Below, in pieces: positions 8,137-15,604 of a stretch of 64,000 bases of DNA. The DNA is from Luteimonas sp. 9C (GTDB taxonomy: Bacteria; Pseudomonadota; Gammaproteobacteria; Xanthomonadales; Xanthomonadaceae): contig NZ_LR733312.1 in assembly GCF_902506295.1 (NCBI RefSeq), positions 541,064 to 605,063 on the forward strand, written 5' to 3'. Numbering within the stretch: position 1 is the first letter of the stretch; each line of letters opens with the position of its first letter. The translations under genes were made by a program, and so were the position numbers. The notes beneath the pieces are model-generated. The model saw nothing but the letters and a program-made list of their open reading frames with translations, searched no databases and had not been told where the DNA came from.

Positions 8137-10179
8137 TCAGCGTGCGATGAAGCGCACCGCCTGTCCGCCGCCCGGGGCCATCGCGATCGACAGCGTGTCG
8201 CCGGCGCCGACCTCGCGCGATTCGATGGCGAGCGCGTGCGGATCGGTCTGCCAGCCGGCGCCGTCACCGTCGCGGTAGATCTGCGCGGTGTAGCGGCGGC
8301 CTGCCTCGAGGAAGTCCAGCGGCAGCGCGACGGTGCGGGGCGTGTCGTCGGTCACTGCGCCCAGATACCAGTCGTCGCCGCCGCGTGCGCGCCGCGCGAT
8401 CACCGCGTACTCGCCCACCGCGCCGTCGAGGGCGCGCGTCTCTTCCCAGTCCACCGGCACGTCGCGGACGAACCGGAAGGCGTCGGGGCGCGACTCGTAA
8501 TGCTCCAGCAGGTCGGCGGCCATCTGCAGCGGGCTGTAGATCACCACGTACAGCGCGAGCTGCTTGGCCAGCGTCGTCGCCATCGGCGTGCCGGATTTCG
8601 TGTCCATGCCGAAGATGCCGGGCGTGAAATCCATCGGCCCGGCGAGCAGGCGCGTGTAGACCAGCGTCGCCTCGTGTTCCGGCGGATTGCCCGGCTGGCC
8701 CCAGGCGTTGTATTCCATGCCGCGCGCGCCTTCGCGCGTGACCAGGTTCGGGTACGTGCGGCGCAGACCGGTGTCCTTCACCGGCTCGTGCGGATTGACG
8801 CTGATGCGGTGCTGCGCGGCCGCTTCGACGACACGCTGGTGGTGGCGCACCATCGACTGGCCTTCGTGCCAGGCGTAGTGCAGCGCGCCGTCGGCGCCGA
8901 GGACCTTGGCCTGGCCTGCGTCGGCCACGTAGCCGGTCTTCACCGCCTGCACGCCGAGACGGCCATAGAGCGCCATCGCATCGTCGAGCTGCGCCTCGTA
9001 ATGCGCGGCGTGGCCGGAGGTCTCGTGATGGCCGATCAGGGTCACGCCCTTCTCGCGCGCGTGGCGGGTGACGGCCTCGATGTCGAAATCGGGGTAGGGC
9101 TGCGTGAAGCTGAAGGTCTCGCCGTTGCCGAACCAGTCGCCGTCCCAGCCGACGTTCCAGCCTTCGACCAGCACGCCGCCGAAGCCGTTGTCCGCGGCGA
9201 AGTCGATGTGCCGGATCGCGTGCGCGGTGGTCGCGCCGTGCTTCGGGCCGGACGCCCAGGTCTTGCGGTCGAGGTGCATCTCCCACCAGATGCCGACGTA
9301 CTTCATCGGCCGCACCCACGAGACATCACCCAGCGCATTGGGTGCATTGAGGTTGAGGATCAAGCCCGATTCCACCAGCCCGCCGGCGCGCTCACTGATC
9401 TGGATGGTGCGCCAGGGCGTGGCGAACGGCGTGGCCACTTCGACCTTCGCCGCGCCGATGCCCGGCGTCAACGCGGCCTTGAAGCGGCGACCTTCCGCGC
9501 GCGTGAGGTTCATGCCCGAATAGTCGACCAGCGCCGCCTCGTGGATCGACAGGTGCAGGCCATCCCCGGTGCGCAGGGTGATCGGCGTCTGCGCCAGACC
9601 GACTTCCTCGACCGGCGTTCGGTGATAGATGTACTCCTCTCGGTTCCATTCGAACGCGGGAATCCACCACGCCGTCGCGGCGTCGGCGATGTCGAATTCG
9701 GTCAGCTCCTCGGCGATCGACAGGCGCGCGAGCCCGGCCTGCTTCGGAATGTCGTAGCGGAAGCCGAGGCCGTCGTCGAAGACCCGGAACACCACGTCGA
9801 AGCGACGCTGCGGTCCCGCGGTTTCGGCCAGCGTGACGCGCAGTTCGTTGTGGTGGTCGCGCATCTGCCGGCGCTCGCCCCAGGGCTGTTCCCAGCGTTC
9901 GTCGTGCGATCGCGTGGTCTGGTCGACGATCGCGAGATTGCGCTCGAACTTGCGCGTGTCGGTGAACATCAGGCCCAGGCGCGACGGCGCGATGACCGGG
10001 CGACCGTCGCGGCTGACCGCGTAACTGGCGCGGCCCTCGTTGTCGGTCGTGACCTCGACGGTGATGCGCGCATCCGGCGAGGCGACGCGCGCGCTCGTAC
10101 GCGGTTCGGCGGCCAGGGTGATGAGCGGCAGGCAGGCGGCCATCGCTACGGCCAGCAATCGGACAAGACGGTTCGACAT
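8137..10179 (-). CDS. Glycoside hydrolase family 97, alpha-glucosidase-like
   Basis: The 680-residue exported enzyme has a signal peptide ending near 'ITLAA'. It has an N-terminal beta-sandwich, a TIM barrel and a C-terminal all-beta domain, as in GH97. Visible active-site segments are 'HHETSG' (Glu386), 'NPHEPVKDTGLRRTYP' (Glu465) and 'GARGMEYNAW' (Glu489). The Glu465-Glu489 spacing equals that of the two catalytic glutamates I recall in the inverting alpha-glucosidase SusB, so cleavage of alpha-glucosides is the likely activity; an alpha-galactosidase-type member is the alternative. A perfect palindrome lies 74 bp upstream of the ATG. Confidence 0.92.
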   Translation of the reverse strand: MSNRLVRLLAVAMAACLPLITLAAEPRTSARVASPDARITVEVTTDNEGRASYAVSRDGRPVIAPSRLGLMFTDTRKFERNLAIVDQTTRSHDERWEQPWGERRQMRDHHNELRVTLAETAGPQRRFDVVFRVFDDGLGFRYDIPKQAGLARLSIAEELTEFDIADAATAWWIPAFEWNREEYIYHRTPVEEVGLAQTPITLRTGDGLHLSIHEAALVDYSGMNLTRAEGRRFKAALTPGIGAAKVEVATPFATPWRTIQISERAGGLVESGLILNLNAPNALGDVSWVRPMKYVGIWWEMHLDRKTWASGPKHGATTAHAIRHIDFAADNGFGGVLVEGWNVGWDGDWFGNGETFSFTQPYPDFDIEAVTRHAREKGVTLIGHHETSGHAAHYEAQLDDAMALYGRLGVQAVKTGYVADAGQAKVLGADGALHYAWHEGQSMVRHHQRVVEAAAQHRISVNPHEPVKDTGLRRTYPNLVTREGARGMEYNAWGQPGNPPEHEATLVYTRLLAGPMDFTPGIFGMDTKSGTPMATTLAKQLALYVVIYSPLQMAADLLEHYESRPDAFRFVRDVPVDWEETRALDGAVGEYAVIARRARGGDDWYLGAVTDDTPRTVALPLDFLEAGRRYTAQIYRDGDGAGWQTDPHALAIESREVGAGDTLSIAMAPGGGQAVRFIAR

Positions 10180-10330: not shown

Positions 10331-11548
10331 CTACGGGGCGTGCCGCCTGCGGAGTGCGAGCCACAGGCCGGCATGTACCGGCATCAGCAACGACAGCCAC
10401 GCCGCATTGCGTTGCGGCAGCACCGGCAGCCAGTGCAGGAACAACGCGGCGACGCCGCACAGCAGCACGGCCACCAGCACCCACTGGAACAGGGCGCCCG
10501 GTGCGCGGCCGCGCGCGAGGCGCCAGCCGCCGGGCAGCAGTAGCAGGCACAGCGGATTGCACAGCAGCAGATTGTGGTTGCGCCAGGCGAAGCCGTGCGC
10601 CGTGCCCAGCCACAGGAACAGCATCACGCCGCCCAGCAGGGCGCTCGCGGTCCAGAACGGCAATGCGATCGCCGCCACTGCACGGGGCGCGAATCGACCG
10701 GCGACGAGGATCGCCATGCCCAGTGCCAAGCCGGCCACCAGCCACGGCCACAGCAGGCGCGCGCGTTCGGCAGGTTCCGGCGCCTGCGTGTGCGGGACGA
10801 TGATCTGTTCGCCCGACACCAGCGGGCGCCCGTCCACATTGCGCGCGCTGCGCAGGGCGTCGGCGAGCCGCATCGGCACGAAGGCGTCTTCCCACAGCGC
10901 GTTCGGACGGTCGGCGGCCGGCCCCAGGCCGATGTCGAAGCCGAGCCACATCCACGGCGCCGGCGATGCCAGCCGTACCGCGTCGCCGCGATAGGTGTTC
11001 CCACGCGAGCGGCCCTGCAGCTGGCCGCGCAGTGCGCCGCCGAGCGTGGTGTCGATGGCGTCGCGGACGCGGGTGGAGCAGTTGTCGGTGAAGTAGTCGT
11101 AGCGGTAGTGCGCGTTCTCCGGCTTCGCGTTCTCGGCCAGCGCCGCAGCGAGGTCGCGCGCCTGCGCCGGGTCGAGATCCAGCCACTGGATCGACACGCC
11201 TCGGCCGACGTCGCGGTAGTAGGCGAGGTCGTCGGCGAGCGGCAGCGCGGCGAGCATGTAGCGCATGTCGCCACGGATGAAGCGCGGCACGAAGTCCGGC
11301 TCGTTCGGATCGAAGAAACCGAAGTTGTAGGAAACCGGTTCCGGCTCGGCCGGATCGTCGACGACGAGGGCGTTGTGGCCGAAGCGCTCGAAGAACACGT
11401 CGCCCGGTTGCATCGTCGCCACGCCGATCCGCGGCACGCCCGGCTCCTGCGCGGCGGCGAGCACCGGCCACAGCAGCAGGCCGAGCAGCAGCGCGAGCGC
11501 ACGGGTGAACACGTGCGCTCGTCGGCGCGACGGCTCAGACGTCGGCAT
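10331..11548 (-). CDS. Lnb-like (DUF4105) lipoprotein N-acyltransferase candidate
   Basis: From ATG 11548 the protein has 405 residues and overlaps the end of corC by 14 nt. It has a signal/anchor segment at about 13-33, then a periplasmic domain with 'FFERFGHNALVV' (His58) and 'YDYFTDNCSTRVRDAID' (Cys157). This His/Cys pair resembles permuted papain-like enzymes. About five C-terminal membrane helices follow. This architecture (periplasmic DUF4105 domain plus 5-TM tail) is that of Lnb, the lipoprotein N-acyltransferase described in Bacteroides. In E. coli the gene after miaB-phoH-ybeY-corC is lnt, so the position also points to lipoprotein N-acylation. Activity is inferred. Confidence 0.78.
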   Translation of the reverse strand: MPTSEPSRRRAHVFTRALALLLGLLLWPVLAAAQEPGVPRIGVATMQPGDVFFERFGHNALVVDDPAEPEPVSYNFGFFDPNEPDFVPRFIRGDMRYMLAALPLADDLAYYRDVGRGVSIQWLDLDPAQARDLAAALAENAKPENAHYRYDYFTDNCSTRVRDAIDTTLGGALRGQLQGRSRGNTYRGDAVRLASPAPWMWLGFDIGLGPAADRPNALWEDAFVPMRLADALRSARNVDGRPLVSGEQIIVPHTQAPEPAERARLLWPWLVAGLALGMAILVAGRFAPRAVAAIALPFWTASALLGGVMLFLWLGTAHGFAWRNHNLLLCNPLCLLLLPGGWRLARGRAPGALFQWVLVAVLLCGVAALFLHWLPVLPQRNAAWLSLLMPVHAGLWLALRRRHAP

Positions 11549-12404
11549 GCACGCTGACTTGCAGCGCGTGCAGGCGTCGCGAGTCCGCATCGGTCACGCG
11601 GAACGCGAAGCGGCCGAGGGTCAATTCCTCGCCGACCTCGGGCAAGTGACCGATCGCACCGGTGATCACGCCGCCGATCGTGTCGTATTCGGCGTCGTCG
11701 AAATCGGCACCGAACCGCTCGTTGAAATCCGAGATCGGGGTCAGCGCGCTGACCGCGAACTGGCCATCGGCCTGGGCGGCGATCAAGGCGTTGGGATCCT
11801 CGGCATCGTCGTGCTCGTCGTCGATCTCGCCGACGATCTCTTCCAGCACGTCCTCGATCGTCACCAGGCCGGCGACGCCGCCGTATTCGTCGATGACGAT
11901 CGCCATGTGGTTGCGCGACAGGCGGAACTCGCGCAGCAGCACGTTGAGTTTCTTGGATTCGGGGATCAGCACCGCGGGACGCAGCAGCTCGAAGATGGAG
12001 CCGGGTCCGTTGTCGGCCACCACGCCGCGCAGCAGGTCCTTCGCCAGCAGGATGCCGAGAATCTCGTCCTTGTCGTCGCCATGCACGGGAAAGCGCGAAT
12101 GGCCCGATTCCACGACCTGCTTCATCAGCTCGAGGAAGGGCGCGTCGGACGGCAGCGCGACCATCTGCGCGCGGGGCACCATCACATCGCCGACGGTCTT
12201 GCTGGAAATGCCGAGCGCACCTTCGAACATGCGCAGCGTATCGGCATCGATCAGGCCGTCCGCGTGGGTGTCGCGCAGCAGTTCCACGAGATCCTCGCGG
12301 TTGCTCGGCTCACCGGAGATCGCGGAGCTCAGGCGTTCGAGCCAGCCGCGGCGTCGCTCCTGGGGTTCGGGGGCGGGGGAAGGTCGACTGTCGTCCTCGG
12401 ACAT
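11535..12404 (-). CDS. corC: CorC/YbeX-type CBS domain protein
   Basis: I chose the ATG at 12404 ('MSEDDSRPS'), giving 289 residues; the longer open frame upstream is low complexity. The protein lacks the DUF21 membrane domain. It has two CBS motifs in the middle (around 'VMVPRAQMVALPSD' and 'MAIVIDEYGGVAGLVTIED') and a C-terminal CorC_HlyC domain, as in YbeX. YbeX/CorC is linked to magnesium homeostasis and, with YbeY, to ribosome metabolism. It lies 73 bp after ybeY and overlaps the Lnb-like gene. Confidence 0.94.
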   Translation of the reverse strand: MSEDDSRPSPAPEPQERRRGWLERLSSAISGEPSNREDLVELLRDTHADGLIDADTLRMFEGALGISSKTVGDVMVPRAQMVALPSDAPFLELMKQVVESGHSRFPVHGDDKDEILGILLAKDLLRGVVADNGPGSIFELLRPAVLIPESKKLNVLLREFRLSRNHMAIVIDEYGGVAGLVTIEDVLEEIVGEIDDEHDDAEDPNALIAAQADGQFAVSALTPISDFNERFGADFDDAEYDTIGGVITGAIGHLPEVGEELTLGRFAFRVTDADSRRLHALQVSVHADV

Positions 12405-12477
12405 GGTGTGGTGCTTGTTCGCAAATCGCCCGGATGGGCCGTGGCGGCAGTCTATCAGGCCGCCGTGGAGGCGCCTG

Positions 12478-12966
12478 TCAGCGCTGCTCGCCGGCGTAGG
12501 GATCATCGATGCCCAGACCGGCCAGGATGTCGCGTTCCAGCTGCTCCATCGCCTCGGCGTCGCGGTCGTTCTCGTGGTCCCAGCCCAGCAGATGCAGCAC
12601 GCCGTGCACGGTGAGATGGGCGTAATGTGCGTTCAGGGACTTGCCCTGGTCCGCCGCTTCGCGCGCGACCACCGGTGCGCACAGCACCAGGTCGCCGAGC
12701 AGCGGCAGATGCACGCCTTCGGGCAGGCCTTCCGGAAGTTCGGCGGGAAAGCTCAGCACGTTGGTCGCGTAGTCCTTGCCGCGGTAGTGGCGGTTCAGCG
12801 CACGGCCCTCGTCCTCGTCGACCAGCCGGACCGCGAGATCCGCTTCACGGATCCGCCCGGCCAGCGCGGCGGCCGACCACTTGCGGAAACTCGCCGCGGC
12901 CGGCAGGCCCTTGCGCGGCAGCGCGTAGCCGATCGCCACATCGAGACGGGTCGGCCCGCGGGTCAT
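12478..12966 (-). CDS. ybeY: Endoribonuclease YbeY
   Basis: This 162-residue protein carries the zinc-binding signature '[16 protein letters not shown]' (H-x3-H-x5-H) near 118-133 and '[14 protein letters not shown]' in the middle, both typical of YbeY. YbeY takes part in 16S rRNA 3' end maturation and ribosome quality control. Its ATG overlaps the phoH stop by 4 nt, and the gene order phoH-ybeY-corC is the widely conserved one. Length matches the family. Confidence 0.97.
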
Positions 12967-13946
12967 GCGCGCGCGGCCGGCGCGGTGGCGTCGGACGCAT
13001 CGCGACGCTCGTAGGCGCTGACGATGCGGGCGACCAGCGGGTGGCGCACCACGTCGCGCGCCTCGAAGAACGTGAAGCTCACGCCGTCGACCTCGTGCAG
13101 TACGTCGATCGCGTCCTTCAGGCCCGACTTCATGTGCTTGGGCAGGTCGATCTGGGTGAGATCGCCGGTCACGACCGCGGTCGAGCCGAAGCCCAGTCGG
13201 GTGAGGAACATCTTCATCTGTTCGATCGTGGTGTTCTGCGCCTCGTCGAGGATCACGAATGCATCGTTGAGCGTGCGGCCGCGCATGTAGGCCAGCGGCG
13301 CGATCTCGATGACGTTGCGTTCCAGCAGCTTGGCCACCTTTTCGACGCCGAGCATTTCGTAGAGCGCGTCGTAGAGCGGCCGCAGGTACGGGTCGACCTT
13401 CTGGGTCAGATCGCCCGGCAGGAAGCCGAGCTTCTCACCGGCCTCGACCGCGGGCCGCACCAGGATCAGGCGCTGGACCTTGGCCTCGTTGAGCGCCTCG
13501 ACCGCCATCGCGACCGCGAGGAAGGTCTTGCCGGTGCCGGCAGGGCCGACGCCGAAATTGATGTCGTGGCCCGTGATCTTGTGCAGATACTTGGCCTGGT
13601 TCGCACCACGTCCGCGGATCGTGCCGCGCTTGACCCGCACCGAGACCTCCTGCGGCGTGTAGTCCTCCTCGACGTTGGCCTGACTCAGGCGCAGGTTGAT
13701 CGCGTGGCTGTCGAGCACCTCGCCCTCGCTCTCGACGTACAGCGCCTTGAGCAGTTTCTCGGTCCGGTCGAGCATGGCCTCGTCGCGGCCGGTGACCCGG
13801 AAGATGTTGCCGCGATTGGCGATCTCCACGCCGAGCCGCAGCTCGATCTGGCGCAGGTGGCCATCGAAAGGACCGGCGAGATTGGACAGGCGCTCGGAGT
13901 CCGCGGGCTCGAGCAGAAAGGTGCGTTCGGGGAGGGCGTTGGTCAT
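12963..13946 (-). CDS. PhoH family ATPase (YbeZ)
   Basis: The 327-residue protein has an N-terminal KH-like region and a PhoH ATPase domain. The domain shows Walker A 'GPAGTGKT' near 136-143, '[10 protein letters not shown]', Walker B '[10 protein letters not shown]' and '[22 protein letters not shown]'. In E. coli YbeZ works with YbeY, and the gene overlap here supports the pairing. It follows miaB by 78 bp on the same strand, so it likely belongs to the miaB operon. Confidence 0.95.
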
Positions 13947-14024: not shown

Positions 14025-15440
14025 TCAGTCGCCGTCGCGCAGCGCGATCCGGCCGCGCAGCGAGTTGCTCAGCGCCGCGGTGATCTCGACATCGACGAAC
14101 TGCCCGATGAGCCGCGCCGGCGCGGGGAAGTTCACCGAACGCATGTTCTCGGTCTTGCCGGTGAGCTCGTTGGGGTCCTTGCGCGACGGGCCTTCGACGA
14201 GCACGGTCTGCACGCTGCCGACCATGCGCTCGGAGATCCCCGCCGCATGGGCATTGATGTGCGCCTGCAGGCGCGACAGGCGCGCGTGCTTTTCTTCCTG
14301 GGTCACCGAATCCTCGAGATCCGAGGCCGGTGTGCCGGGCCTGCGCGAATAGATGAAGGAGAACGACTGGTCGAAGCCGACGTCCTCGATCAGCTTCATC
14401 GTCTTCTCGAAATCGGCGTCCGTTTCGCCGGGGAACCCGACGATGAAATCGGAACTGATCGAAATGTCGGGACGTACCGCGCGTAGCTTGCGTATCTTCT
14501 GCTTGAACTCGAGCGCGGTGTAGCCGCGCTTCATTGCCGAGAGGATGCGGTCGCTGCCGGCCTGCACCGGCAGGTGCAGGTAGTTCGCCAGCTGCGGCAC
14601 GTCGCGATAGGCCTCGACCAGCGAGTCGGAGAACTCCAGCGGATGCGAGGTGGTGAAGCGGATGCGGTCGACGCCGTCGATCTCGGCGATGGTGCGGATC
14701 AGCAGGCCGAGATCGGCGATCTCGCCATCGCCCATCGGTCCGCGGTAGGCGTTGACGTTCTGCCCCAGCAGGTTGATCTCGCGCACGCCCTGGCCGGCCA
14801 GTTGCACGACCTCGACCAGCACGTCCTCGAACGGCCGGCTGACTTCCTCGCCGCGGGTATACGGCACCACGCAGAACGAGCAGTACTTCGAGCAGCCTTC
14901 CATGATCGACACGAACGCGCTCGGCCCGTCGGCGCGCGGCTCGGGCAGGCGGTCGAACTTCTCGATCTCGGGGAAGCTGATGTCGACCTGCGGCAGGCCG
15001 GTCTCGCGCTTGGCGCGGATCAGTTCGGGCAGGCGGTGCAGGGTCTGCGGGCCGAACACCAGATCCACGTAGGGCGCGCGCTTGACGATGGCCTCGCCTT
15101 CCTGCGATGCGACGCAGCCGCCGACACCGATCAGGACCGGCTTGCCATCCTTTTTGAGTGCCTTCCAGCGGCCGAGCTGGCTGAAGACCTTCTCCTGGGC
15201 CTTTTCGCGGATCGAACAGGTGTTCACCAGGACGACGTCCGCGTCCTCCACGTTGTCGGTGAGTTCCAGGCCGTCGCTGGCCGCGAGCACGTCGGCCATC
15301 TTGGCCGAGTCGTACTCGTTCATCTGGCAGCCGTGGGTCTGGATGAACAGCTTGCCGCGCGGCGCGGGCTGGGGCGATGCCGGCGTCGTGGCGCGGTCGG
15401 AGGCGGGCGCATTCGGCGCCGCGGAGGCGGTCTGGGTCAT
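14025..15440 (-). CDS. miaB: tRNA-2-methylthio-N6-dimethylallyladenosine synthase MiaB
   Basis: I chose ATG 15440 ('[10 protein letters not shown]'), giving 471 residues; ~40 extra in-frame residues upstream look non-coding. The N-terminal methylthiotransferase domain begins at '[14 protein letters not shown]'. The radical-SAM cluster motif is '[17 protein letters not shown]' (CxxxCxxC), and a TRAM domain ends the protein. The enzyme methylthiolates i6A37 of tRNAs using two [4Fe-4S] clusters. An Ala/Pro-rich linker of about 25 residues precedes the core. It is the first gene of the miaB-phoH-ybeY-corC-Lnb-like series and is divergent from the lytic transglycosylase gene. Confidence 0.97.
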
Positions 15441-15604
15441 GGCAGGTCCGGGGCGCGGCGTTGAGTCCGGGCCGGAAGGCGGGAAGGGGTGGGCAGTGTA
15501 CCGGCAAGCGCCGGCGAGGCCGGCCACAGCGGCTTCGGAGGTCGTGGGCGACGTTCGCAATCAAGCACTTGGCAACCGTCCTCGAACATCGGACACTCCG
15601 CCTC

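Follow-up and report, generated by a model that had tools for sequence, protein, structure and literature searches.

An Lnb-family protein in the genomic slot of lnt: probable lipoprotein N-acyltransferase of Luteimonas sp. 9C and its order

The locus

The window considered here is a 64,000-nt stretch of DNA from Luteimonas sp. 9C (order Xanthomonadales, class Gammaproteobacteria), in which the gene order is read on the minus strand. Directly behind corC it carries a gene for a protein of the Lnb family. Lnt is usually regarded as the gammaproteobacterial N-acyltransferase; we propose that the window gene very probably encodes an Lnb-type N-acyltransferase that does Lnt's job. The features of the locus are as follows.

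10331..11548, minus strand: Lnb-family gene (405 aa), proposed lipoprotein N-acyltransferase; Pfam Lnb_N and 5TMH_Lnb above gathering scores
11375..11377, minus strand: codon of His58, proposed catalytic base; in 102/103 aligned copies
11078..11080, minus strand: codon of Cys157, proposed acyl-carrying nucleophile; in 102/103 aligned copies
10577..10597, minus strand: codons His318 to Asn324, membrane part; His318 and Asn324 conserved
11535..12506, minus strand: corC (ybeX); Pfam CorC_HlyC and CBS
12478..12966, minus strand: ybeY; Pfam YbeY, TIGR00043 above cut-off
12963..13946, minus strand: phoH (ybeZ); Pfam PhoH
about 14025..15458, minus strand: miaB (start codon not settled); TIGR01574 at 605.4 bits versus a cut-off of 355.3
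8137-10179, minus strand: GH97 glycoside hydrolase gene, downstream of the Lnb-family gene; Pfam

A first-pass annotation of this DNA had read miaB, phoH, ybeY and corC upstream of the Lnb-family gene, and Pfam and NCBIfam identify all four. The coordinates, strand and start that it gave the gene also stand, as does a 14-nt overlap with corC, which ends at 11535 while the ATG of the next gene lies at 11548. By their coordinates phoH, ybeY, corC and the Lnb-family gene overlap in succession. An alternative in-frame ATG upstream, at 11590, would lengthen the protein to 419 residues. The GH97 gene also follows the Lnb gene in some Luteimonas and Pseudoxanthomonas loci.

Domains, conserved residues and predicted fold

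What kind of protein lies behind corC? It had been proposed to be of the DUF4105 type, and it passes the cut-offs of both domains that define the Lnb family in Pfam: Lnb_N (PF13387) at 62.3 bits against 22.2, and 5TMH_Lnb (PF25221) at 33.4 bits against 25.2. PF13387 we take to be the former DUF4105; the Bacteroidota copies of Lnb are annotated ‘DUF4105’, in agreement with this. The protein lies outside the Lnt family (TIGR00546; domains LNT_N and CN_hydrolase), giving no match to Lnt or CN_hydrolase at E <= 0.001 with Pfam or NCBIfam. It occupies the genomic slot of Lnt and would catalyse the same reaction, but its domains and catalytic residues are different.

The predicted model has five C-terminal helices (residues 267-286, 288-315, 332-345, 352-373 and 382-399), where about five had been expected. 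Its periplasmic domain is predicted to adopt the permuted NlpC/P60 fold of YiiX, TseH and LRAT. With these proteins, and with H-REV107 and Tox-Act1, it shares this predicted fold and the order of His then Cys; the structural matches are confined to the periplasmic part, and the gene context differs. Foldseek by itself gave no match at E <= 0.001, and a sequence search for related solved structures returned a single, chance-like match at E <= 10 (E 1.8).

Are the putative catalytic residues conserved? We aligned 103 rows: the best 80 of 169 stretches from named genomes, 22 loci from families f2-f11 and the window. Among those best 80, the closest relatives are Lysobacteraceae bacterium PS02340 (89% identity) and Luteimonas (87-88%). 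The first-pass annotation had placed a His58/Cys157 pair at these positions and had staked its proposal on conservation of the pair in orthologues. Both residues are kept in 102 of the 103 rows, as are His318, Asn324 and Pro332. At all five the sole exception is L085, a metagenome-bin copy with an open frame that ends after 124 residues.

Lnb is reportedly the lipoprotein N-acyltransferase of Bacteroides, described in 2024 by Armbruster et al. in PNAS. Our six Bacteroidota-type copies come from five records labelled as plasmids and one unverified record labelled as a phage; the sequences of two of them (L188 and L189) begin at the first matching base and lack the N-terminus. The phage-labelled record, L189 (MT836251.1), carries a Bacteroidota-type Lnb and is more likely a piece of a chromosome. 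All six can be aligned with the copies of the order over most of their length. His58 and Cys157 correspond to His61 and Cys160 of the Bacteroides finegoldii protein (L186; numbering from the upstream ATG), and the His and Cys columns are the same in all six. In one alignment His318, Asn324 and Pro332 are common to 25/25 rows from the order and 6/6 Bacteroidota-type rows. When 24 proteins (20 from the order, four from Bacteroidota) were scanned at E <= 0.001, all 24 matched the Lnb model and Lnb_N, and 23 matched 5TMH_Lnb. The window protein resembles Bacteroides Lnb in both domains, in the His/Cys pair, in the membrane His and Asn and in length. The gene context differs: the window copy follows corC, whereas in B. 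finegoldii and Parabacteroides the gene is itself followed by one of the alkaline-phosphatase family and by secA.

Exchange of lnt and Lnb behind corC

The position behind corC is a constant feature of the Lnb-type gene in the order. All of the best 80 loci (out of 169) have corC upstream in the same orientation, L079 and L080 appearing to represent a single stretch of one species, and so do all 22 loci from families f2-f11. In 92/101 loci no more than 60 nt separate the corC stop from a possible Lnb start, and the median is an overlap of 4 nt; the distance is measured to the nearest possible start codon, picked for nearness. Two loci of family f9 (L162 and L163) have a frame of about 260-280 codons on the opposite strand between corC and lnb; by eye it resembles an alpha/beta hydrolase.

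Which gene occupies this position elsewhere in the class? We examined 19 lnt loci from other families, namely the top-scoring listed matches with enough flank, chosen without prior sight of their neighbourhood. In 15 of them corC immediately precedes lnt, and in one it lies about 3 kb away; in the remaining three it was not found within the fetched stretch. miaB, phoH and ybeY are also present in 14 of the 15, and the fifteenth (L237) has no phoH match. That lnt is the usual occupant behind corC, as the first-pass annotation held, is thereby borne out.

Distribution of the two families

The genome of Luteimonas sp. 9C, listed as 100% complete with 0.07% contamination, was searched for lnt, as had been advised, and nothing exceeded the cut-off. 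With the lnt model the only matches were three weak ones, the best reaching 30.2 bits where the cut-off is 132.9, and NCBIfam assigns them mainly to nitrilases and amidases; LNT_N found one match below its cut-off, containing an internal stop. On the other hand lgt, lspA and one LolC/E-family protein all score above their cut-offs, and the core lipoprotein pathway is therefore present.

The order, represented among the stretches from named genomes by Xanthomonas, Stenotrophomonas, Lysobacter, Luteimonas and Pseudoxanthomonas among others, was sampled with 160 genomes. The window protein is matched in 157, 156 of them at E <= 1e-20; the match in the last, G083 (1.5e-10), is much weaker than all the others (1.7e-21 or better). 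Three genomes lack a match: G006 and G016, both of family f6, and G018. No LNT_N matches are stronger than theirs; on the lnt model the proteins reach 298-304 bits, and they are encoded directly after corC. G018 (L170, L268, L269), which is counted in these tallies, is labelled as a member of the order, yet its RpoB is only 58-61% identical to the 13 other rows compared with it, two outgroups included. Its label is thus doubtful and it was left out of evolutionary inference; possibly it is a misassigned genome. Its rpoB is split over two open frames about one base apart.

Among 323 genomes of the class, the Lnb alignment found matches in 45, at full length in only six: five labelled as belonging to the order of the window, and G477. 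The other 39 reach at most 34.4 bits. In 38 of these the match covers only part of the N-terminal domain, in long frames of 609-887 codons and mostly in genomes that bear lnt; the remaining one, G439, weakly matches the membrane part. The lnt model scores above its cut-off in 298/323 genomes: one of the six with full-length Lnb (G011, status taken from its E-value of 3.7e-55) versus 297 of the 317 others (Fisher's exact p = 1.1e-5, a test that ignores relatedness). The LNT_N protein of G011 is of the divergent type considered below. Across the two samples the lnt and Lnb families are distributed in a near-exclusive manner.

History of the exchange

If lnt and lnb replace one another behind corC, how often has this happened? 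In a quick tree of rpoB and rpoC from 28 genomes, the lnt-bearing family f6 falls inside the order, beside f8 (SH-aLRT 97). A tree of CorC also assigns f6 to the order (95/85), though at its base, with weak support for the rest of the order (91/67). Since a topology that joins the Lnb-bearing members was not rejected (p-AU 0.258) and CorC makes f6 basal, the nesting of f6 within the order is not secure. Either lnt was retained in this family or it was regained there.

The rpoB and rpoC tree places G477 outside the order's clade, and a tree of miaB, phoH, ybeY and corC places it with other orders (order clade 100/99). Its Lnb, in contrast, lies inside the Lnbs of the order, beside family f11 (98/90), and holding it outside was rejected (p-AU 0.00145, for a clade named after the tree was seen). 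Its best lnt match has an E-value of 7.2e-8. The simplest reading of these trees is that lnb alone moved into the corC slot of G477 and lnt was lost; the slot appears to have been swapped independently there. The six Bacteroidota-type rows form a separate side of the Lnb tree (99/98) and are too few to give the direction of any ancient transfer.

A broader reading would make Lnt and Lnb interchangeable parts of a module coupled to corC, with an ancestral swap in the order, a transfer to G477, possibly a reversal in f6, and CorC/YbeX tied to N-acylation. We advance it tentatively, at slightly less than an even chance.

Discussion

How might the protein work? It would be anchored in the membrane and face the periplasm, where Lgt and then LspA would have yielded a diacylated lipoprotein with a free N-terminal cysteine. 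Within the permuted NlpC/P60 (LRAT-like) domain, His58 would activate Cys157. A phospholipid would donate an acyl chain to Cys157, where it would be held as a thioester before transfer to the amino group of the lipoprotein cysteine. The product, a triacylated lipoprotein, would then enter the Lol pathway. The five C-terminal helices would anchor the domain and probably assist in lipid binding; His318 and Asn324 presumably have roles of their own, and the gene may be essential.

That such an enzyme replaces Lnt is well supported by comparison of genomes: by the absence of lnt, the near-exclusive distribution, the exchange in one slot and the conserved catalytic pair. The first-pass annotation had suggested either a functional replacement of Lnt or a second route beside it. 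These comparisons favour the former, while for Luteimonas sp. 9C the latter falls away, no Lnt having been found there.

Several observations weigh against this interpretation. On the NCBIfam Lnb model NF051878 the window protein scores 165.1 bits (model positions 20-370 of 394), far below the equivalog cut-off of 550, and it is only 24-28% identical to four Bacteroidota copies. The cut-off seems to be drawn tightly around Bacteroides, since the copies of Parabacteroides (398.1 bits) and Hymenobacter (219.9) also miss it and that of B. finegoldii passes (667.4); we therefore claim membership of the Pfam family and not the equivalog name Lnb. The genome has a single LolC/E-family protein over the cut-off (G000:C1:326590-327816, minus strand; L302), which may point to a LolF-type transporter whose membrane subunits are all of one kind. 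Single-LolF systems are able to live with diacylated lipoproteins, and N-acylation need not then be essential. Could the window protein have this fold but act, as a lipid hydrolase or an acyltransferase, on some other substrate, the lipoproteins of the order staying diacylated? The lone LolC/E protein would suit this, and diacyl anchors were assumed where no lnt was found in Xanthomonas campestris B100 (PMC10368991). The fold family, moreover, includes toxins that act on membrane lipids, the kinship with Tox-Act1 coming from a tree in PMC12994826. We nevertheless consider this explanation improbable: the gene sits in the usual slot of lnt and trades places with it, nearly all full-length Lnbs of the sampled class come from genomes without a bona fide lnt, and the residues of the membrane part are common to Bacteroidota Lnb.

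A further difficulty is that 30 of the 157 Lnb-bearing genomes of the order also hold an LNT_N protein over the cut-off. For the five of these proteins that were scanned, the lnt model gave 90-192 bits, with two (192 and 146 bits) passing its cut-off. Of the divergent Lnt-like membrane nitrilases (L090-L116 and related places), some lie in open frames of 820-940 codons. The genome of Luteimonas sp. 9C, for its part, encodes another protein with Lnb_N (DUF4105), about 604 residues long (G000:C1:304669-305181, minus strand; L005). Might N-acylation be due to one of these, the window gene being accessory? The remaining 127 genomes, that of Luteimonas sp. 9C among them, have no LNT_N match over the cut-off. 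We aligned one Lnt-like protein from each of 27 of the 30 genomes, one row being a 13-residue fragment, with 22 canonical Lnts, 19 of them from other families of the class. Glu, Lys and Cys, and a Tyr-Glu pair, are important in Lnt. The 26 informative Lnt-like rows all retain the Glu, Lys and Cys; two residues after the Cys, however, all 26 have Asp where all 22 canonical Lnts have Glu, and the residue next to the Cys, Tyr in 21 of the 22, is Leu in 12, Lys in 12, Phe in one and His in one. corC was not found near the divergent genes in ten stretches from nine genomes, some of them short contigs. The second DUF4105 protein has DUF7844 in front of Lnb_N and no 5TMH match, and proteins of the long type occur in 38/323 genomes of the class, mostly beside lnt. 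N-acylation by another protein thus appears less probable still, although the suggestion of a second route may hold, in attenuated form, for those 30 genomes with their divergent Lnt-like proteins. Least probable of all, and very nearly negligible, is that the gene is a remnant or chance neighbour with no role in lipoprotein maturation, a view for which we found nothing in favour: it is matched in 157/160 genomes, its catalytic and membrane residues are conserved, and in 92/101 loci it may start within 60 nt of the corC stop. We conclude that an Lnb-type N-acyltransferase doing the job of Lnt is very probably the right description of the window gene.

Neither the Lnb family nor its displacement of Lnt in silico is new. 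PMC12994826 (2026) reports DUF4105/Lnt displacement in silico in three contexts that its text leaves unnamed, possibly with the corC slot among them. Apolipoprotein N-acyltransferase is one of the core genes of gammaproteobacteria that, according to PMC7828034, X. vasicola, X. albilineans and X. fastidiosa lack. In the open-licence literature, as far as it was screened (in part), we recognised no paper that credits the N-acylation of the order to an Lnb-type protein. The window protein adds a member of the family in an order-wide setting, with clean evidence of exchange in one slot.

The whole order, Xanthomonas, Stenotrophomonas, Lysobacter, Luteimonas and Pseudoxanthomonas included, seems to use Lnb rather than Lnt. 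If true, this would explain why lnt has been reported missing from Xanthomonas and Xylella, and would mean that their lipoproteins were wrongly assumed to be diacylated; it would also suggest that inhibitors of Lnt should not act on the order. The natural swaps allow Lnt and Lnb to be compared in one genetic context. Should the broader reading of their history also hold, an envelope enzyme essential in E. coli would have been displaced repeatedly in place.
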